Source: an uncultured Alphaproteobacteria bacterium
GTDB taxonomy: Bacteria > Pseudomonadota > Alphaproteobacteria > HIMB59
NCBI GenBank assembly: GCA_902599045.1
Contig: CACKEA010000001.1
Coordinates: 1 to 64,000, forward strand
DNA length: 64,000 nt
Reading direction: 5' to 3'
This document shows positions 5,415-19,915 of the stretch, in pieces. Numbering within the stretch: position 1 is the stretch's first letter; each line of letters opens with the position of its first letter. A program made the position numbers and the translations under genes. A model generated the notes under the pieces. The model saw only the letters and a list, made by a program, of their open reading frames with translations, had not been told where the DNA came from and ran no database searches.

Positions 5415-6605
5415 CTAAACATTTAACATCTTTCTAGCATACCAATCGTGAAAGACATGAGTTGGTTCATCCATTACTGGTGAAAAACGCCCTCCATCAA
5501 AGCCTTCCGCATACCGGCCTCGCTGCATTCCCTCTACTACAAAAATATCTTCTTCAAATACGGTTCTCCAAAGCTTGGTATTCTCTAAGCGTGTTTGCTG
5601 ATATTCATCAGACAACATAGAAGAGTCAGAATAATAGATTTCAACATGCTCTTTGATTTGATCACATCCAATTGGCTCAATAATGAGATTAAAAACATGA
5701 TCTTTTTGAACACCCAATATTAAATTTGGAAATAAAACAATATATTCTCCTTTACTGTTCCATTCAGAGCTTAAATTTTTAAAATTTTGAAATTGTTTTC
5801 CCTTTGAATATCTTGGAATGTATTTATTACTAATTTGTCCAGAATAATGGCCATATTTAACAATATTTTCATGATCCTCTAACTTGGAATAACTATTTAA
5901 ACCTGGGTGTATCCAAGGAAGGTGATAGGACTCTAAGTAATTTTCGACTGCTAGTTTCCAATTAGTTTTGACCTCAAGCTCAAAAGATGAGTCGCTCATA
6001 TCTGAATGCATAGGTTGATCAAAAGAGGACCATCGTTTTAACAAAGGTTTATGAACTTCTTCAAAGGGTTTTGCCCTGCCATCAGGATTTACAAATATGA
6101 CATCTCTCCAAATATGAGAACGAACCTCAATTAATGATAATTCACTTTTATTAATATCGGAGTGATAGTTATAACCTGGTCCTCCAATATGAGGGGTAGC
6201 AACAACTTCTCCAGTTTGCTTGTAACACCAAGAATGGTAAGGACAGCGAATTGCACCCTTCAAAACTTTGGGGTCTTTAATGAGGGTCATACCTCGATGT
6301 CGACATACATTTTGAAAAACACGTATTTTTTTATCTTGGATACTGCGAATTAATAAGAGAGGATTTTTAAAATAGTTGACCGGTCTAACAGAGCCAGGTT
6401 GAGGTAGGTCTTTTACGAAGCCTACGGCAAACCAACCTTTGTTAAAAAGAATTTCTTTCTCTAAATCAAAATATTCAGTTTTAGTATAATATTCATTGGG
6501 GATGCCTTTTGCTTCGTGTATTGGTTTAATACATTGTTCTAATTTTTGAAGATTTTGAAAATAAACTTGATCGGTATCTTGTTGATCAACTTCTACTTCT
6601 CTCAC
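5415..6605 (-). CDS. Rieske [2Fe-2S] non-heme iron oxygenase alpha subunit (choline/quaternary-amine monooxygenase-like)
   Basis: CRHRGMTLIKDPKVLKGAIRCPYH (CxH...CxxH Rieske cluster) and ENYLESYHLPWIHPGL mononuclear iron site. Confidence 0.85.
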   Translation of the reverse strand: MREVEVDQQDTDQVYFQNLQKLEQCIKPIHEAKGIPNEYYTKTEYFDLEKEILFNKGWFAVGFVKDLPQPGSVRPVNYFKNPLLLIRSIQDKKIRVFQNVCRHRGMTLIKDPKVLKGAIRCPYHSWCYKQTGEVVATPHIGGPGYNYHSDINKSELSLIEVRSHIWRDVIFVNPDGRAKPFEEVHKPLLKRWSSFDQPMHSDMSDSSFELEVKTNWKLAVENYLESYHLPWIHPGLNSYSKLEDHENIVKYGHYSGQISNKYIPRYSKGKQFQNFKNLSSEWNSKGEYIVLFPNLILGVQKDHVFNLIIEPIGCDQIKEHVEIYYSDSSMLSDEYQQTRLENTKLWRTVFEEDIFVVEGMQRGRYAEGFDGGRFSPVMDEPTHVFHDWYARKMLNV

Positions 6606-6624: not shown

Positions 6625-8091
6625 TCACGTTAAATCTATCCAAATAGTTTTTAGCTCACAATACTGATCATGTGCAGCTAAAGATTTATCCCTGCCCCCG
6701 AAGCCGGAGAGTTTATAACCCCCAAAAGGAGTAGTGATATCGCCCTCACCGTAACAATTAACTGCTACAGTCCCAGCCTTAATTTTTCTTGCGGCTACAT
6801 GAGCTGTCTTATTAGAACTAGTAAAAACAGAAGCGGCCAGTCCGTACTTGTTTTGGTTGGCTAAAGCTATGCCTTCTTCTGGATCTTTAAAGGATGTAAT
6901 CCCTAAGACAGGGCCAAAAACTTCTTCAGAAAATAGAGTATTTTCAGGCTTAACGTTATCAAATATGGTTGGCTGAACAAAATATCCACCTGTATCTTCT
7001 CTGGTTCTTTTGCCTCCAATAACTAATTTATTTTTATCCTGGTTAGCTTGATCAATGAAGCCCATAACCTTGTCTAGATGTGCTTGTTCAATCATTGGGC
7101 CAATTTTAGTTGTAGCATCTAAAGGATCTCCCACTACCCACTCTTTAGATTTCTCGACAATTAATTCAAGTAGTTCATCTTTGATTGATTGATGGACAAG
7201 TAAACGAGAATTTGAAGAACAGTTTTCTCCCATATTCCAGAATATAGAATTAGTGGCATGATCAGCTGCTGTATCTAAATCCTCAGTGTCACCCATTACA
7301 ATAAAAGGATTTTTCCCACCACACTCTAGTAAAACTTTTTTAAGATTAGTATCAGCAGAGTAACGAAGAAACATTCGACCGGTTTCAGTAGATCCAGTAA
7401 AAGCTACACAATCAACATCAGTATGTTCACCTAGCGCTTTTCCCACGGTCTCACCAAAACCACAAACAACATTTATAACACCATCGGGAATGCCAGCCTC
7501 TGCAGCAAGCTCTCCAATTCGAATTGTTGAAAGAGAGGTTTGTTCAGCAGGTTTCAAAATCACAGTATTTCCTGTTGCAAGAATGGGACCGAGCTTCCAA
7601 GCAGCCATCATTGCGGGAAAATTCCAAGGTAGAATAGCCGCGACAACACCCATCGGCTCTCTGACAATCATCGAGAGGATACTTGGGTCACTTGGAGAAA
7701 TTTGATCATAGAGCTTATCAATGGCTTCGGCGTGCCAGCGAATAGTATTAACTGTTTCTGGCATATCTATTTCTAAACAATCAGTTATTGGTTTGCCTGC
7801 TTCCATAGCTTCCATCATCGCTAGCTCCTCTGAGTGAGCCTCTATGACTGTTGCAAATCTCAATAAAACTTTTTTTCTCTCAGCAGGTGCCATCTTAGAC
7901 CAAGGACCATCCTCAAAAGCTTTTCTTGCTGCGGATACAGCTTTATTAACATCTTCACCTGAAGCCTCAGCGATACTTGCTAAAACCTTTCCGTTAGAAG
8001 GGTTAATAGTTTCAAATGTTTTGCCCTCAGATCCAGGAAGAGGTCTACCTCCTATGATCAATTGTGTTGAAAAATCAACTGTTTTAGACAT
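6625..8091 (-). CDS. NAD(P)-dependent aldehyde dehydrogenase (PuuC/betaine-aldehyde dehydrogenase-like)
   Basis: ILPWNFPAMMAAWKLGPILATGNTVILKPAEQT, FTGSTETGR, LLECGGKNPFIV and FGPVLGI; full length. Confidence 0.92.
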   Translation of the reverse strand: MSKTVDFSTQLIIGGRPLPGSEGKTFETINPSNGKVLASIAEASGEDVNKAVSAARKAFEDGPWSKMAPAERKKVLLRFATVIEAHSEELAMMEAMEAGKPITDCLEIDMPETVNTIRWHAEAIDKLYDQISPSDPSILSMIVREPMGVVAAILPWNFPAMMAAWKLGPILATGNTVILKPAEQTSLSTIRIGELAAEAGIPDGVINVVCGFGETVGKALGEHTDVDCVAFTGSTETGRMFLRYSADTNLKKVLLECGGKNPFIVMGDTEDLDTAADHATNSIFWNMGENCSSNSRLLVHQSIKDELLELIVEKSKEWVVGDPLDATTKIGPMIEQAHLDKVMGFIDQANQDKNKLVIGGKRTREDTGGYFVQPTIFDNVKPENTLFSEEVFGPVLGITSFKDPEEGIALANQNKYGLAASVFTSSNKTAHVAARKIKAGTVAVNCYGEGDITTPFGGYKLSGFGGRDKSLAAHDQYCELKTIWIDLT

Positions 8092-8105: not shown

Positions 8106-9071
8106 TTAATTCCTTTTAATTGAAGACTGGATTAACCAGTCTTTCTCTTCCTGCCAATCTCTCCAAACCAATCTATTGTTAGTAGTATGGTTGATTGGTA
8201 GTTTTGACATGGCAATTCTTAAATCATGGCGTGCAGGTGCTGCTACATTTGGTAGGGGTTTTCGGGGCGGGCCCATTTCTCTACCTGATAAATTCGCCGC
8301 CGCTTTAATCCCTGTAAGGTAGTCAACGTCGTGTCTATTTCCTCCCAACCATAAGCAGACGGGCTCCATCAATTTCCATAGATCCATAGCTTCTTGATAT
8401 TTTTTTTCTTCAATTAAATTAAATAGTTTAACACATTCATGAGGCATAAAATTTACAGCTCCCCAAATCATCCCTGTACATCCACTCATTAATGCAAATG
8501 GGGCAAAGGAGTCTATACCACAGAAAACTCTTCCTCCCGTCTTGATAAATTTTTGCAAATTTAAAAAGTCTCCTGAACTGTCTTTAATATAATCTAAATT
8601 TTCTATTGCTAATAATTTACGATAAGTGTCTTGGGAGAGGGGTGCGGCTTGCTGTGGAACATTATACATTACGACAGGAATTCTCACTGCTTTTGCTATA
8701 GCCTCATAGTGATAAATAACTCCACGTTCTGAGGGCGGTTCTAGAAAAGGTGGCATAACCATAATTGCAGTTGCACCTGCATCTTCTGCGGCCCTTGCTT
8801 TGTTGATACACTCATTAGTACTGAGTGCAGTAGTTTGTGCTATTGTAGGGCACCTGCCATTGATATGTTTAACACCCTCTGTAATTAAAGTTTGTTTCTC
8901 ATCAGCTGTTAGATAAGCGTATTCACCGGTGCCAGAACATAAAACTAAACCATGTACACCAGCTTCTAATAAGTCATCAATATGAGAGTGGTAACGCTTT
9001 AGATCAATTCCCTCTCCACTATCTTGGAATGGGGTACACATAGCTCCGTAGATACCTTTTAAAACAGTCAC
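8106..9071 (-). CDS. Dihydrodipicolinate synthase/N-acetylneuraminate lyase (DapA) family protein
   Basis: GIYGAMCTPF, GLVLCSGTGEYAYLT, VMYNVPQQ and YIKDSSGD (Schiff-base Lys); GTG start. Confidence 0.88.
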   Translation of the reverse strand: MTVLKGIYGAMCTPFQDSGEGIDLKRYHSHIDDLLEAGVHGLVLCSGTGEYAYLTADEKQTLITEGVKHINGRCPTIAQTTALSTNECINKARAAEDAGATAIMVMPPFLEPPSERGVIYHYEAIAKAVRIPVVMYNVPQQAAPLSQDTYRKLLAIENLDYIKDSSGDFLNLQKFIKTGGRVFCGIDSFAPFALMSGCTGMIWGAVNFMPHECVKLFNLIEEKKYQEAMDLWKLMEPVCLWLGGNRHDVDYLTGIKAAANLSGREMGPPRKPLPNVAAPARHDLRIAMSKLPINHTTNNRLVWRDWQEEKDWLIQSSIKRN

Positions 9072-9129: not shown

Positions 9130-10467
9130 TTATAAATCCTTGCCTGCTGTCATTTCTCGAGATTTAATTCTTAAGTTAGCCCCTATTTGGGTAAAAAAAT
9201 TAGGCGGCAAAGGACTAGGTTTTTCAATATTTTCATACTTATCAAGTTGAGATGAATTTGATTTACATGCCTTATCAATTATTAGTTTTCCTGCCAAAGT
9301 TCCTTTAACTGTTCCCAATCCATTTGAACAGCAAGCAGAAAAGAGATTTTCATCTAGCTCACCAAAAGCAGGAGCACCGTTTAAAGAAAGACAAACTCGA
9401 CCTCCCCAACTAAACTCAAAAGGTATTTGATTTAAGTTAGGAAAGCGTGCTAAAAAACTTTTTCGGTGTTTTTGACAAGAATTTTCAAAATCAGAATTAA
9501 GTGACTCGAGACTTTGACGACACCTCCAAGTATTCCTAATGAGAAGCCTAGATTGATTTTCATTGACCTTTATTTTTCTGACAGTGGTGCCTATAGGATT
9601 TGAGGAAGTCAAACCCCATGAAGGATCACTTTTTAAAATACCATCATCAAATTTTTTAGTAAGAGAGGAATAGGTAAAAATATGAATGAGTTGATTTTTG
9701 TAAAATCCAAAATTAGTAATATGCCCATTCACTGCAAAAATAATATTTTTAGTAACTATTTTTCCTTGTGGGGTATAGGCATCCCAATTATTATTTTTTT
9801 TTTCAATTTTTTTTATAGGGCTATTTTGAAAAACTTTAATTTTATCATTAAGTCTCTCTGCTATTCTTTTTATATACTCTGCAGGCTGAATTAAAATTGT
9901 TCCAGGGGTATAAATTCCATGTTGATAATAATTGGAACCAGTGATTTCAGACATCTGTTTGGAATCTAAAGACTGATAGTCCTCTCCTAACGCCTCTAAT
10001 TGTTTTTTATAATCTTTATTGAAAGAAATGCCTTTGGGTGTTGCTGCACCATTTAGCTTACCTATCTTATTGTATACACTTTGGGGAATATCAAACTCTT
10101 CAACCATTTGTGATGAAAATTCTATAGCCTCTCGATGAAGAGAAATTGTATCTTTATCTTTTTTAATTGAACTTAAATAGTCACCTTTTGCATTTATGTT
10201 ATGAGGAACATCGATCATGAAACCACTATTCTGGCCAGCAGCTCCTTCACCAATACCAATTGCATCAATGAGAATTATTTTGTCGCCACTACGAAGCTCC
10301 GTTAGTCTTTTTGCTGCAGATATGCCTGTAAAACCACTACCAATAACAAGCCAGTCACAGGTGTGATCTCGATCAAGAATGGGAGCAAAATATCGGCTGT
10401 CACTTGTTTTTAACCAGCCATTTTCCCCAATTTCCAATGGAAATTTGCTAGATGAGTAAGCAGTCAA
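9130..10467 (-). CDS. FAD-dependent amine/amino-acid oxidase (DAO family, PuuB-like)
   Basis: DWLVIGSGFTGISAAKRL (FAD-binding GxGxxG) and EGAAGQNSGFMI; C-terminal FSACCSNGLGTVKGTLAGKLI. Confidence 0.85.
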   Translation of the reverse strand: MTAYSSSKFPLEIGENGWLKTSDSRYFAPILDRDHTCDWLVIGSGFTGISAAKRLTELRSGDKIILIDAIGIGEGAAGQNSGFMIDVPHNINAKGDYLSSIKKDKDTISLHREAIEFSSQMVEEFDIPQSVYNKIGKLNGAATPKGISFNKDYKKQLEALGEDYQSLDSKQMSEITGSNYYQHGIYTPGTILIQPAEYIKRIAERLNDKIKVFQNSPIKKIEKKNNNWDAYTPQGKIVTKNIIFAVNGHITNFGFYKNQLIHIFTYSSLTKKFDDGILKSDPSWGLTSSNPIGTTVRKIKVNENQSRLLIRNTWRCRQSLESLNSDFENSCQKHRKSFLARFPNLNQIPFEFSWGGRVCLSLNGAPAFGELDENLFSACCSNGLGTVKGTLAGKLIIDKACKSNSSQLDKYENIEKPSPLPPNFFTQIGANLRIKSREMTAGKDL

Positions 10468-10484: not shown

Positions 10485-11555
10485 CTACCCTTTAGGTAAC
10501 CACTTCTCTTCAGCTTTATATTTATCTTGATGCTTGGTATTAATGCTACTTAAAGTTTTATCTGTGCCTAAGATAAAATGTTTGCTCATGTCAGGATAGT
10601 ATTTGTAGGAGATAGGTTTACGACCTAAAGCCACAGCCATTTCTCTTACATGGTGTGGGGCTGCCCCACAGCATACTCCAATAAAATTAATATTTTTACT
10701 TTGACAATCTTTGGCAAACTCAGCCATTTCATATCGATTACAATAAAGATTATCAATACCCACAGGGAACGGTCTGTTATTAGGAATACAATCACAGCCC
10801 TCGTCTGGCAAAGAAAACCAAACGGGAAATTTATCTGTAGTTCTGACGGGAACAGGCAACCCTGCAACATGACAAGATACTTTTTCACGAATTTTAATTA
10901 AATGTTTCATTGTATGGATAGGTCCTCTAAAACAATTTAAGCCCACAACCTCAGCACCATTATCTTCAAACTTTTTACAGGCATCCTCCGGGGTATCATT
11001 ATCCCTTGTAAGGTCATTTGCTGGTATAGCTAAATTTACCACTGCTATTAAGCCTGCCTCTTTTATTTTTTTAAGAGCAATCAACGCTTCCCCAGTCCAT
11101 TGAATTGTTTCAGCTACAACAAAGTCCACGCCTGCATCCTTTGCCCAGCCAATCTGTTCTTCATACATCCTCTCTACTTCAACTAATGAGGATTTATTAT
11201 TAGGATCATATATATTCGTGTTCGCAACATCTCCTGCGATCATTAAATCTAAATCAGGAAATTCATTTGCAGCATCTTTTGCAATTTTTAAAGCATTTAA
11301 TTGAAGTGGTTCAAGTAATTCCTCTTTACCTATCAATCGAAGTTTTTCACGATGACCGTAATATGTGAACGCTTGAACAACATCACTGCCTGCTCTAATA
11401 AATTCTCGATGAAGCTGGGTGACCACTTCTGGATGCTCTAAAACTACTTCTGGTACGAAGGCGCCTGCCTGTAAATAGCCCCTTTTTTCCATTTCAAATA
11501 AATAACCCTCAGCACACAAAACTGGGCCCTTGTCTAATCTTTGAATTAAATCCAT
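10485..11555 (-). CDS. Betaine-homocysteine S-methyltransferase-like enzyme
   Basis: FTYYGHREKLRLIG, GLNCFRGP and IGVCCGAAPHHVREMA (GLNC...CC zinc ligands); M at 11555 preceded by GAGGAGAGG is a better start than 11576. Confidence 0.85.
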   Translation of the reverse strand: MDLIQRLDKGPVLCAEGYLFEMEKRGYLQAGAFVPEVVLEHPEVVTQLHREFIRAGSDVVQAFTYYGHREKLRLIGKEELLEPLQLNALKIAKDAANEFPDLDLMIAGDVANTNIYDPNNKSSLVEVERMYEEQIGWAKDAGVDFVVAETIQWTGEALIALKKIKEAGLIAVVNLAIPANDLTRDNDTPEDACKKFEDNGAEVVGLNCFRGPIHTMKHLIKIREKVSCHVAGLPVPVRTTDKFPVWFSLPDEGCDCIPNNRPFPVGIDNLYCNRYEMAEFAKDCQSKNINFIGVCCGAAPHHVREMAVALGRKPISYKYYPDMSKHFILGTDKTLSSINTKHQDKYKAEEKWLPKG

Positions 11556-11650
11556 AAACCTCTCCTCATAATGCATAAAACTCTATTATGGAAATAAACC
11601 CATTTCTAGTTTAAAAAAAGATAGGATATTAAAGGTTTAGGAGAGTAAAA

Positions 11651-12739
11651 GTGGGGGCAAAAAAAGCAGATTTTTTCGACTCGAGGGATAAATATTTATC
11701 TTTTGTCAATTCAACAAATGAAAAAAGTAAAATTGCTTTTGAACTCGCTAAATACATAAAAAAATCAAAGATAACTAAAGATGCTTTTAGAATTTTTGAC
11801 GCCGGAACTGGTGACGGGAGTGTAATCTCTACACTTTTATCTGCTACTCATGAGAAATTTCCCGAGGACCCTATTATTGTTGTAGGAAAAGAAATAAGCA
11901 TTGATGATATCAATAGTTTACTAGCTTTTTTAGGTTATCGGTTCTATGAACATAAAAATTTAGTTTTTTGTATTACAAATGCCTCTTACAAAGATATTCA
12001 TAAGAAAGAGTTTAAAGATTGCAAGCTTATAAAAAAAGAACTTTCAGGAAACTCTAGTTTTAGTTTTAATCAACAACTTATGAGTATGAGTGATGTAATT
12101 AAAAAGAATTGGGAAATAAAAGAAGTTACATCTTCTACAATATTACGACCCAAACATAAAAGCTTTATGGTTATTTATAGAAAAGATCAAAAAATTCCTT
12201 TAATTCATTTAATTCCTAAAAAATTAACTGATGTCCCCAAGGTTTATGATTTTATTATAGCCTCACAAGCCTTTCGATTGAGATCGCCCTATCAAAGAAC
12301 TTTGAATCTGGTGTTATTACCATTGATAAGGATGTTAGATTTTAAAGGGCAACTATTTTTTATCTACTCATCAGGAAATGATTTTACGAAAAAAATATTA
12401 AAACAATTTTTTCCTAAAATTAATCCATTTCAATTTAATGACCCAAAAACTTTTATAAAAACTATCTCGCAAAATATTCCTGAATTTTCAAAAAAATACA
12501 AAGTAAATGTATCGAGTTTCCTTTTCTCTTTCCTAAATATATCTCTTTCTTCAAAAAGAAAATTTTCTCCCATGAATTCACTAGGACTCTGGAATGCCAT
12601 TACTTATGTAGGTCAAATATCAGAAAATGAGCAAAATAAAATTAATATAAATGTTAAATTTTTGGATAAAATCAGCAGCAGTGCAAAAAAACTCTCTTTA
12701 AACTTTAAAGATAATATGATTAGGTTTGAAAAAAAATAA
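11651..12739 (+). CDS. Class I SAM-dependent methyltransferase-like protein of unknown function
   Basis: FDAGTGDGSVIS (motif I-like), KEISIDDIN, YDFIIASQAF and FKGQLFFIYSSG consistent with a Rossmann MTase; GTG start; 19 nt before dddP-like gene. Confidence 0.55.
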   Translation: MGAKKADFFDSRDKYLSFVNSTNEKSKIAFELAKYIKKSKITKDAFRIFDAGTGDGSVISTLLSATHEKFPEDPIIVVGKEISIDDINSLLAFLGYRFYEHKNLVFCITNASYKDIHKKEFKDCKLIKKELSGNSSFSFNQQLMSMSDVIKKNWEIKEVTSSTILRPKHKSFMVIYRKDQKIPLIHLIPKKLTDVPKVYDFIIASQAFRLRSPYQRTLNLVLLPLIRMLDFKGQLFFIYSSGNDFTKKILKQFFPKINPFQFNDPKTFIKTISQNIPEFSKKYKVNVSSFLFSFLNISLSSKRKFSPMNSLGLWNAITYVGQISENEQNKININVKFLDKISSSAKKLSLNFKDNMIRFEKK

Positions 12740-12758: not shown

Positions 12759-14045
12759 ATGAGTAATTTTTCCAGCAAATTCGCAGATCGAAAAATTGGG
12801 CCAAAGTTTCTCGACTCCATCAATCAAAATTATCAAAATCAAATCTATAAGCCTCGACTCTATGAAGATAAGATAGATTTTGAACGTCTAAGAATGTACC
12901 GATTAAACAGGGTGCAAGAACAATTACGTTTAAATAATTTGGGAGCGTGCATTTTATTTGATCCCATTAATATTAGATATGCAACTGATAGCAGAAATAT
13001 GAGCTTATTTACAATGCATGAACTTGTTCGTTTTGTGTTTATTTCTGCAGACAATAAAGTAGTTTTATTTGATTATCCTAAAAGTGAACACCTTTCTAAT
13101 CACCTTTGTACAATTGACGAAATAAGAGAAGTAGTAAGTTGGGATTTTTTTTCTGCAAATAATTTTGTAGATAAAAATGCAAAACAATGGGCTAGCATTG
13201 TTCAAGATTTAATGCGTGAACATTCGCCTGATAACAACAGGCTAGCCATAGATGTATCTGACCCTGTTGGAATTCAAATGCTTCTCAAACAGTTTGATGT
13301 TGAAATATTAAATGCTCAAAAGATAGTTGAAACCGCCAGATCAATTAAATCAGAAGATGAGTTAGTATGCATGAAGGCCTCTATTGAAACAGCTGAAAAA
13401 GGAATGTGGCTGATGAAAGAAAAATTACATGCTGGAATGACGGAGGAAGAACTCTGGTCATATATGCATAAGGTTAATATTGAAAATGGGGGTGAGTGGT
13501 TCGAGACTCGTCTATTAGTATCTGGCCCAAGAACAAATCCATGGCTTCAAGAATGTAGTAATCGTGTGATTGAAGCAGGTGATGTAGTAGCTTTTGATAC
13601 TGATATGGTTGGGCCCTATGGTTATTGTGCTGATATCTCTCGAACCTTTGTTGAGGGAAATAAGTTTAATGATGAACAAAGAAGGCTTTATGATTTAGCC
13701 TTGGAACATATTAACCACAACAAGTCTTTGATTAAAGCTGGTTTAAACTTTCGAGAATTTGCAGAACAATCTTGGAAGTTACCTGATAATTGTTATGACA
13801 ATCATTATCCTTGTATTATCCATGGCGTGGGATTATGTGACGAGTGGCCTTTTGTTGCCTACCCCAATAAAGATTTTAGTAACTCTGATTACTCTGCCCA
13901 TTTTGAAGAAAATATGACTATTTGTGTTGAGAGTTATATTGGAGAGGTTGGCGGAAAAGAAGGTATAAAACTTGAGGATCAATTCTTGGTAACTAAAGAT
14001 GGGCTTGAACAGTTGAGTTCATTTCCTTATGAACAATCAAACTAA
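12759..14045 (+). CDS. dddP: DddP-type DMSP lyase (M24 metallopeptidase fold)
   Basis: FDPINIRYATDSRNM, GGEWFETRLLVSGPRTNPWLQECS, FDTDMVGPYGYCADISR, IHGVGLCDEWPFVAYP and CVES...KLEDQ closely match remembered DddP sequence; metal ligands and catalytic Asp conserved. Confidence 0.85.
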   Translation: MSNFSSKFADRKIGPKFLDSINQNYQNQIYKPRLYEDKIDFERLRMYRLNRVQEQLRLNNLGACILFDPINIRYATDSRNMSLFTMHELVRFVFISADNKVVLFDYPKSEHLSNHLCTIDEIREVVSWDFFSANNFVDKNAKQWASIVQDLMREHSPDNNRLAIDVSDPVGIQMLLKQFDVEILNAQKIVETARSIKSEDELVCMKASIETAEKGMWLMKEKLHAGMTEEELWSYMHKVNIENGGEWFETRLLVSGPRTNPWLQECSNRVIEAGDVVAFDTDMVGPYGYCADISRTFVEGNKFNDEQRRLYDLALEHINHNKSLIKAGLNFREFAEQSWKLPDNCYDNHYPCIIHGVGLCDEWPFVAYPNKDFSNSDYSAHFEENMTICVESYIGEVGGKEGIKLEDQFLVTKDGLEQLSSFPYEQSN

Positions 14046-16453: not shown

Positions 16454-17626
16454 CTAAGCAAGGGATTTAAAATCAGAGACTAAATCTAAACTCTCCCATG
16501 AAAAAGCACCAGTAGAGCTATCATGAGTTCTGCCAAAGTGACCATAAGCTGATGTTTGTTCGTAAATCGGTTTATTTAACTGCAGTTTCTCTCTAATTCC
16601 TCTTGGCGATAAGTTCATAATCTCAGGTATTGCTGCCTCAATTTTGGCTTCATCTATTTTATTTGTGCCTTGCGTGTTAACATAAATTGACAAAGGCTTA
16701 GCCACTCCGATTGCGTATGACAATTGAATTGTGCATTGATCACATAAACCTGCGGCAACAATATTTTTTGCAAGGTATCTAGATGCATATGCAGCAGAGC
16801 GATCAACCTTTGTTGGGTCTTTTCCAGAAAAAGCCCCTCCACCGTGTGGTGCCGCACCACCATATGTATCAACAATGATTTTTCTCCCAGTAAGGCCTGT
16901 ATCTCCATCTGGTCCACCTATTACAAAGTTACCAGTCGGATTTACGTAATATTCACTATCATCAAAATTTTTTAGAAGCTCTTCAGGTATTGATTGTTTT
17001 AAAGCTGGATTTACAATTTCTTTGACATCACTAGGAGAAAGTCCATCAGCGTGTTGAGTTGATATCACAACTGATGTTACAGCATTAGGTTTACCATCAA
17101 CATATTTAAGAGTTACTTGACTCTTAGAGTCAGGCTCCAATCCCTTCATGCTGCCATCTTTTCTTCCCTTAGCCATTAGCTCTAAAATTTTGTGAGAATA
17201 GTAAATCGGGGCAGGCATTAACTCTGGTGTTTCTGTACAAGCATACCCGAACATTATTCCCTGATCACCAGCGCCTTCATCTTTGTCAGATGATGAGTCT
17301 ACACCCATTGCAATATCTGCTGATTGTCCATGAAGTAGATACTGAACATCTGCGGTTTGCCAATGAAATCCGTCTTGTTCATAACCTATATCTTTAATGC
17401 AATTTCTAACTTTCGAGATTATTTCATCTTTGTCTTCTTGAACTGGGCCTCGAATTTCACCTGATAAAACAACCTTATTGGTCGTAGTGAGTGTTTCGCA
17501 AGCTACTCTTGCATATGGATCTTTTGCAATAAAATGGTCAACTACTGCATCTGAAATCCGATCAGAGACTTTATCTGGGTGACCCTCAGATACTGACTCG
17601 GATGTAAAAATAAAATCTTTTCTCAT
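16454..17626 (-). CDS. metK: S-adenosylmethionine synthetase
   Basis: [34 protein letters not shown] and [19 protein letters not shown]. Confidence 0.97.
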
Positions 17627-17628
17627 GG

Positions 17629-18909
17629 CTAATATCTATATGTATCTTTCTTAAATGGTCCTTGATTTTCGATACCCAAATAATCACTTTGATCTTTTGA
17701 CATTTGGGTCAATTTTGCTCCAACTTTTTCTAAATGAAACATAGCAACCATTTCGTCTAATTTTTTGGGGAGAACATAAACTTTATTTTCATAGTTTTTG
17801 TAGTTTTCCCATAACTCTATTTGAGCTAAAACCTGATTAGAAAATGATGCGCTCATAACAAAACTTGGGTGTCCAGTTGCATTACCTAGGTTCACTAATC
17901 TTCCTTTTGAAAGAATAATGAGTTTTTTGCCATCCGGGAATGTTACCTGATCAACCTGAGGTTTAATCTCTTCCCATTTGTAGTTTTGTAAATCATCTAT
18001 TTGTATTTCATTGTCAAAGTGACCAATATTACAAACAATGGCACGGTCTTTCATTTCTCTCATATGATCTTGTGTGATAATATCTTTGTTACCTGTTGCA
18101 GTTACGAATATATCGGCATACTTACAAGCATCATCCATAGTGACGACTTCATACCCCTCCATTGCAGCCTGTAGGGCACAAATAGGATCAACCTCAGTTA
18201 CTTGAACTCTAGCACCGGCTCCTCTTAGAGATGCTGCGCTACCTTTTCCAACATCTCCATATCCTGCAACGACTGCAACCTTACCAGCCATCATAACATC
18301 TGTTCCTCTTCGGATACCATCAACCAAACTCTCCTTACAACCATATAAATTATCAAATTTACTTTTTGTGACAGAGTCATTAACGTTTATAGCAGGTACT
18401 TGGAGAGTTCCTTTAGATGCCATTTGTTCTAAACGAAGAACACCAGTTGTAGTTTCTTCTGAAAGTCCTTTAACATTTTTAAGAAGTTCGGGATATTTCT
18501 CATGCATGCGAAGAGTCAGATCTCCCCCATCATCAAGAATCATATTTGGTTCCCATCCTTCAGCTTCAATAGTTTGGTCTATGCACCACCAAAACTCTTC
18601 CTCATTCATTCCCTTCCAAGCAAATACAGGAGTACCACTTTGAGCTACTGCTGCAGCTGCGTGATCTTGGGTTGAATAAATATTACACGAGCTCCATCGA
18701 CACTTAGCTCCAAGTTCGACGAGTGTTTCAATTAAAACTGCTGTTTGTATGGTCATGTGAAGACATCCCATAATATTTGCCCCAGCTAATGGCTTTGATT
18801 TACCATATTGTTCTCTTATGGCCATTAATCCTGGCATTTCAGTTTCTGCAATTTCGATTTCTTGTCTTCCGAAACCATGTTCAGAAATATCTTTTACTTT
18901 GTAATCCAC
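17629..18909 (-). CDS. ahcY: S-adenosylhomocysteine hydrolase
   Basis: [30 protein letters not shown] and [41 protein letters not shown] start. Confidence 0.97.
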
Positions 18910-18964
18910 ATAACCCTCCTTTTAGATAGACTATTTAAAATAAAATATGATTTATTTAGTGTTA

Positions 18965-19915
18965 TCAAGCTCTTTTTATCCTTGGTCCTAACTGCTGAAT
19001 GACTTCAACAGCCCTTGTGTTTCCGTTAATCAAAGCTTCATCGACAGACTTTCCTGACAAATAGAAATCTAAAAAACCTGCAGCAAAATTATCTCCTGCA
19101 CCTGTAGTATCAATTACATTTTCTATTTTTTTAGAGGGTTGATGACTCACATCATCATTATAAAAAAAATAAGCTCCCTCGGCTCCTGAAGTCATGACAA
19201 TTTTTTTTCCGTAATCGTTAAAAAATGAACTCACATCTGCCATAGTTTCAGATTGTGAAAACATTTTAGCCTCATCGAAGTTACAAAAGACCAAATTTAC
19301 ATTCTCTTTTATAAAATTGTTTAATTCATCTCTATGTCGATCAACACAAAAAGGATCTGAAAGAGATAATGAAATTTCTGTATTTTTAGATTTGGCTATA
19401 TCTCCAAATTTTTTTAAAGTTTTTTTTGTTAATTCATGATCCCAAAGATATGACTCCATATACATGTGGTCAATATTGTCGAGAATATTTTCGCTAACCT
19501 CATCAGGTTGCAACTGAGATCCAATACCAATGTGTGTTGCCATAGTTCTTTCACCATCAGGTGATACTAATATGTTACAACATCCGGTAGGTAAGTCACT
19601 TTTTCTTGAAACTCCTTTGAATGAGATATTTGCTTTTTCCAAATCTTGTATAAATGCATTTCCATATTCATCATCGCTCACCTTTCCATAAAAACTAGCC
19701 TCATGGGAACCAAAATTTAGTTCATGAACTGTATTGCAGACAGATCCACCTGAGGTGATTAAAGGATTGGTAAAATTTGATCTTATGTTTTGGATTTGAG
19801 ACTCTTCGATTAAAGTCATAGAGCCCTTAGACAAATTTAAGTCACTGATTATATTGTCTTCCACCTGGCAAATGACATCAACCAAAGCGGTTCCTACTCC
19901 AAGAATTTTTTTCAC
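18965..19915 (-). CDS. PfkB-family carbohydrate/nucleoside kinase, probable adenosine kinase
   Basis: GGSVCNTVHELN and IDTTGAGDNFAAGFLDF; position upstream of ahcY-metK. Confidence 0.85.
   Translation of the reverse strand: MKKILGVGTALVDVICQVEDNIISDLNLSKGSMTLIEESQIQNIRSNFTNPLITSGGSVCNTVHELNFGSHEASFYGKVSDDEYGNAFIQDLEKANISFKGVSRKSDLPTGCCNILVSPDGERTMATHIGIGSQLQPDEVSENILDNIDHMYMESYLWDHELTKKTLKKFGDIAKSKNTEISLSLSDPFCVDRHRDELNNFIKENVNLVFCNFDEAKMFSQSETMADVSSFFNDYGKKIVMTSGAEGAYFFYNDDVSHQPSKKIENVIDTTGAGDNFAAGFLDFYLSGKSVDEALINGNTRAVEVIQQLGPRIKRA

Follow-up and report, generated by a model that had tools for sequence, protein, structure and literature searches.

Among the DMSP lyase genes of marine bacteria, dddP is counted as the commonest (PMC10686828), and DddP-like relatives are commonly annotated as Xaa-Pro peptidases in genomes. 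The DNA analysed here, a stretch of 64,000 nucleotides that we call the window, comes from a 1.37 Mb, ~95% complete genome of the HIMB59 group (G000). It carries an M24 gene that a sequence-only reading had presented as a DddP-type DMSP lyase with a complete set of metal-binding and catalytic residues. Does this residue set tell us that the enzyme makes DMS from DMSP? The answer that we prefer, with moderate confidence, is that the protein is an M24 metalloenzyme of the DddP superfamily acting on a methylated zwitterionic osmolyte, and that it stands outside the tested DMSP-lyase clade. A literature search for dddP in HIMB59 or AEGEAN-169 found no report.

The gene and its neighbourhood

The gene is a single intact ORF, from ATG to stop, and the opposite strand of the same segment is interrupted by stops throughout (Table 1). 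Its product matches Pfam M24 (109.6 bits) together with Creatinase_N, and about 40 residues at its N-terminus find no match in the DddP model. Of 49 congeneric genomes, about 35 have an ortholog, in most cases 83-97% identical; in the sister family the gene appears in two of 31 genomes (64 and 67% identity). One congener has a degenerate DddP-like copy with several in-frame stops (G038:C1:47133-48383). The source genome also encodes a second M24 protein (L002, G000:C4:146691-147860), 25% identical, that lacks the DddP residue set.

Table 1. Features of the window at and around the DddP-like gene
Feature	Positions	Strand	Basis or remark
Rieske oxygenase, carnitine / glycine betaine monooxygenase type	5415..6605	-	NCBIfam GbcA 113 bits, cut-off 670; nearest solved CntA, 8e-31
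Aldehyde dehydrogenase	6625..8091	-	many NCBIfam ALDH models, none over cut-off
DHDPS-family lyase or deaminase	8106..9071	-	Pfam DHDPS
FAD-dependent (DAO family) oxidoreductase	9130..10467	-	Pfam DAO
Betaine-homocysteine methyltransferase (BHMT)-like protein, divergent neighbour	10485..11576	-	Pfam S-methyl_trans; nearest solved relative mammalian BHMT, 7e-44
Upstream ORF of 362 aa with no assigned family, separated from the M24 gene by 19 bp	11651..12739	+	likely co-transcribed; same strand as M24 gene
DddP-like M24 metalloenzyme, 428 aa	12759..14045	+	Pfam, NCBIfam, PDB, AlphaFold evidence
Codon F84, at RlDddP Trp95 position	13008..13010	+	column counts
Codons D280, D282, D292 (RlDddP D295, D297, D307), metal ligands	13596..13634	+	alignment
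Codons Y350, H355, D361, the last a putative catalytic base (RlDddP Y366, H371, D377)	13806..13841	+	alignment
Codons E391, E406 (RlDddP E406, E421)	13929..13976	+	alignment

The ORF immediately upstream finds no match in Pfam, NCBIfam or the PDB, and its AlphaFold model (pLDDT 38) is unusable. It recurs in about 36 loci of the genus at 68-97% identity, directly upstream of the M24 gene in the loci inspected. It contains the string DAGTGDGS, reminiscent of motif I of SAM methyltransferases. Beyond this ORF the neighbourhood of the M24 gene varies within the genus, a point against the reading that we prefer. HIMB59 has the same island without the Rieske gene and with two BHMT-like genes, the Rieske gene being retained in other congeners. 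AEGEAN-169-like relatives carry, near the gene, a Rieske oxygenase 42-44% identical to that of the window, plus a small SAM methyltransferase. Near the methylated-osmolyte island of the window, positions 16454-19915 of the reverse strand hold genes that by sequence belong to the S-adenosylmethionine cycle (metK, ahcY and an adenosine kinase-like gene), in an order conserved across the compared loci of the genus.

Fold and active site

Compared with the PDB by phmmer, the protein retrieves the DddP structures 4rzy, 4s01, 4s00 and 4b28 with E-values from 1e-92 (4rzy) to 1e-86. Its predicted monomer (AlphaFold, pLDDT 82.8, pTM 0.83) superposes on RlDddP 4rzy with a TM-score of 0.87 and an rmsd of 1.8 Å, which answers the call of the sequence-only reading for a structural superposition on DddP. 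That reading had quoted three strings, IHGVGLCDEW among them, all of which are found in the translated ORF, and had matched residues to DddP by their spacing. A true alignment to 4rzy bears out the correspondence: D280, D282, D292, H355, E391 and E406 fall on the metal ligands D295, D297, D307, H371, E406 and E421, and D361 on the catalytic Asp377. The counterpart of the catalytic Tyr366, Y350, absent from the original list, is kept as well. This match is not a matter of chance, given the E-value against 4rzy and the maintenance of orthologs at high identity in most congeners.

In DddP, the metals bind the carboxylate of DMSP, a Trp and a Tyr bind its sulfur, and an Asp takes the alpha proton (PMC5395565). 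With a DddP-like catalytic machinery, the HIMB59 protein probably works like DddP in its chemistry. A small zwitterionic osmolyte with methyl groups, whether a sulfonium or a quaternary ammonium compound, would be bound by its carboxylate to the two metals; D361 would then remove the alpha proton, with departure of the onium group as in DddP. The enzyme would belong functionally to an island of catabolic genes for demethylation and oxidation, namely those of the BHMT-like protein, the Rieske oxygenase, the DAO-family oxidoreductase and the aldehyde dehydrogenase.

How diagnostic are the residues?

If the substrate is DMSP, the protein is a genuine, divergent DMSP lyase: a di-iron site would bind the carboxylate of DMSP, and abstraction of the alpha proton by D361 would set free DMS and acrylate. 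We regard this as possible, though less probable than the broader reading that we prefer. In its favour stand the full set of metal and catalytic residues and the closeness of the model to RlDddP. The fold, the six metal ligands, Tyr366 and Asp377 are indeed common to the HIMB59 protein and to DddP (RlDddP 4rzy/4s00/4s01; RdDddP 4b28; the enzymes of R. nubinhibens and P. marinum IMCC1322), as is a marine alphaproteobacterial host, at ~38-44% identity.

How much does the residue set weigh? We scored an eight-residue signature in an alignment of the matches of a genome scan. Each of the 22 DddP-clade rows has it, as do all 31 rows of the HIMB59 lineage; it is also present in 61 of the 82 other paralogs that fall outside the DddP clade, many of them from soil bacteria, so that it does not mark out DMSP lyases. 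The suggestion, made from the sequence, that the set points to DMS production goes further than the set allows: taken alone, it does not imply that the protein is a DMSP lyase. A separate subclade, 15 of the 82 paralogs, has Gly in place of Asp377.

The NCBIfam model for DddP (NF043017) has a cut-off of 600 bits. Among 385 alphaproteobacterial genomes, strong matches to the model occur in 77 (at most four per genome), and the cut-off is passed in only 12. The HIMB59 protein scores 384.6 bits, under the cut-off; this value is close to the 367 bits of rhizobial homologs linked to Rieske genes and lower than the 452 of Mesorhizobium homologs linked to MttB, which argues against a DMSP lyase. The cut-off is a strict one, since the DddP of IMCC1322 (571.6 bits) is under it too. 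Failure at the cut-off was for this reason dropped as a decisive argument against DddP, and the shortfall of IMCC1322 helps the case of a divergent lyase.

In the substrate pocket, we take the sulfur-binding Trp to be Trp95 of RlDddP, the review that describes the mechanism giving it no number. Column counts show no variation at Trp95, Asn99 or Ala103 among the 22 rows of the DddP clade, and in our protein these positions are F84, E88 and F92. The claim of a 'complete' set consequently stands for the metal ligands and the catalytic base and lapses at these three positions. Within the HIMB59 lineage, the changes are W95F in 31 of 31 rows, N99E in 28 of 31 and A103F in 28 of 31. Loss of the Trp, with changes at its neighbours, in a place where Trp and Tyr are reported to bind sulfur (PMC5395565), speaks against DMSP cleavage. 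It is not unique to the lineage, as Phe also occupies position 95 in 21 of the 82 other paralogs (Trp in 54). The other Trp residues fixed in all 22 rows of the DddP clade (248, 262, 277) are kept in the HIMB59 protein. W95F, N99E and A103F are concrete residues for probing what makes DddP a DMSP lyase.

Phylogenetic placement

Two maximum-likelihood trees, one of 119 rows and one of 91, with branch support by SH-aLRT and built without the fungal DddPs and the O. doudoroffii DddP2, give a DddP clade with 100% support. It holds RlDddP, IMCC1322 and, in the second tree, Oceanisphaera and Oceanimonas, the latter a row that could correspond to the tested O. doudoroffii DddP1 or DddP2. Both trees put the HIMB59 lineage outside that clade, on a long branch of its own with 100% support. 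An AU test rejected its nesting in the DddP crown (p-AU 0.0024) and did not reject a position as sister to the DddP clade (p-AU 0.142), both groupings having been picked after viewing the tree, in which deep branches are weakly resolved. The sequence-only reading had named a place among prolidases or creatinases, outside the tested clade, as telling against itself: the lineage does lie outside on these trees, it does not lie among prolidases, and a place beside the DddP clade is not rejected.

For a DMSP lyase, the place outside the tested clade is unfavourable and the unrejected sister position favourable. Distance alone does not exclude that function, as one fungal DddP is functional at an identity of only 32% to RdDddP (PMC4108388); fungal DddP was found sister to SAR116 DddP by Choi et al. 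(PMC4304780). As a member of DddP proper our protein is a candidate at most: it lacks Trp95, scores under the model cut-off and sits outside the clade in the ML trees, with the sister position not rejected. Immediately upstream of a basal member of the DddP clade (L047/L204 in genome G157; 570.8 bits) there is a gene for a Rieske oxygenase with 47% identity to that of the window.

Genes for DMSP metabolism

Is DMSP metabolised at all in this genus? The gene dmdA is found above the cut-off in 40 of 52 genomes of the marine genus, the source genome included, and in one congener (G013) the DddP-like gene is divergently oriented next to a true dmdA (492.8 bits, cut-off 410). This adjacency is the sole direct link to DMSP. 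Together with the prevalence of dmdA it makes DMSP a natural candidate substrate. At the G013 locus (L064:3990-6472), where the DddP-like gene is 66% identical to ours, nearby genes resemble TmpA/gamma-butyrobetaine dioxygenase and an enolase-superfamily enzyme.

By contrast with the genome taken as IMCC1322, where acuI (428 bits) adjoins dddP on its upstream side, in agreement with PMC3338564, no acuI above the cut-off was found in HIMB59-group genomes searched genome-wide (best score 85 bits, cut-off 297), which weakens the case for a DMSP lyase. Only this genome-wide absence counts: Roseobacters lack the acuI-dddP linkage as well (PMC3338564), and the want of acuI next to the M24 gene is accordingly not taken as evidence. 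A short N-terminal acuI query found no match; it had no positive control and was set aside. The HIMB59 protein thus departs from the DddP DMSP lyases in its position outside their clade, in W95F, N99E and A103F, in a genome with no acuI above the cut-off, and in its neighbourhood.

Related loci in other bacteria

Besides Alpha-, Beta- and Gammaproteobacteria, the DddP-like M24 superfamily takes in halophilic Bacillota as well as some Chloroflexi and Actinobacteria. Plasmids of rhizobia, Paraburkholderia and Caballeronia carry homologs, 43-50% identical, near genes for Rieske oxygenase and reductase. In rhizobia, the M24 gene comes after the Rieske and reductase genes, also beside a 4-hydroxyproline epimerase, and in two of three records read it is flanked by glycine betaine/proline transporter genes; in Mesorhizobium, homologs are downstream of MttB and DMGDH-like genes. 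The rhizobial, Paraburkholderia and Mesorhizobium loci are apparently devoted to the catabolism of N-methyl osmolytes. These paralogs share with the HIMB59 protein most of the residue set and the vicinity of demethylation genes (Rieske, MttB or DMGDH), and differ in having mostly Trp at position 95, in their soil or host-associated hosts and in their other flanking genes. Our literature search found no biochemistry for the paralogs outside the DddP clade. A hydroxyproline-betaine pathway of the rhizobial type was considered for the cluster of the window and not adopted, as the HIMB59 genomes searched contain no epimerase of the proline racemase family.

Of 49 non-clade loci, 14 have an MttB or DMGDH gene within ~6 kb, against none of the 14 background loci taken from those genomes (Fisher p=0.018); the comparison has a small background and includes related loci that are not fully independent. 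Such neighbourhoods suggest a role of the wider DddP-like family in breaking down methylated osmolytes. Linkage to a Rieske gene does not exclude DMSP, however, as an oxygenase of the same type is found near a canonical DddP in Oceanimonas. In Oceanimonas sp. CHS3-5 (L335:6001-13245) that DddP (627 bits) lies ~3.4 kb from the GbcA/CntA-like Rieske gene, which is followed by an aldehyde dehydrogenase; the oxygenase is 44% identical to that of the window.

Which substrate?

Under our preferred reading, of an enzyme acting on a methylated zwitterionic osmolyte, a betaine-type substrate is no less probable than DMSP. For this reading speak the DddP-like residues and fold, the place outside the DddP clade, the presence of the residue set in most other paralogs, the changes at positions 95, 99 and 103, and the neighbouring genes, both here and around relatives. 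A wider proposal, more tentative than that of a divergent DMSP lyase, is that the members of the DddP-like M24 superfamily are cleavers of onium osmolytes that partner Rieske or MttB demethylases on betaines, DddP being a branch specialised in DMSP and the HIMB59 enzyme a separate branch with another substrate.

An ordinary M24 hydrolase cutting a C-N bond, be it a dipeptidase or a creatinase-like or ectoine-hydrolase-like enzyme, is unlikely: despite the same fold class and the Xaa-Pro peptidase label in many genomes, the protein has HGVGLCDEW and no HxxGH pattern of prolidases, its best peptidase or prolidase match in the PDB (2e-16) is far weaker than that to DddP, and the adjoining genes show no context of peptide metabolism. 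M24B prolidases and aminopeptidase P, the ectoine hydrolase EutD (DoeA) and creatinase share the pita-bread fold and the N-terminal creatinase domain, yet at ~20% identity and TM-scores of 0.61-0.72 (prolidases ~0.67); in the fold search, prolidases, EutD and creatinase rank right behind DddP. The M24 outgroup rows compared have His or Thr where the HIMB59 protein has D361, and the eight-residue signature is found in none of five prolidase-like outgroup rows. In this the sequence-only reading was right, both in setting the residue set apart from generic Xaa-Pro peptidases and in placing the protein with DddP, a kinship that sequence, fold and residues uphold.

The distinction matters for the environment. 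If paralogs such as this one, candidate lyases with a complete residue set in a streamlined marine group of wide distribution, go into counts of dddP, estimates of DMS production would be inflated; if the HIMB59 enzyme does cleave DMSP, the group would be a further source of DMS, besides having its own dmdA.

Two further observations concern the superfamily at large. Halophilic Bacillota (Halobacillus, Pontibacillus, Alkalicoccus; L290, L291, L294, L298, L300) have homologs ~49-50% identical to the HIMB59 protein. In four genomes (G337, G112, G164, G413; L080, L085, L092, L099), DddP-like paralogs stand in tandem, at least two in a row, some of them beside MttB genes.
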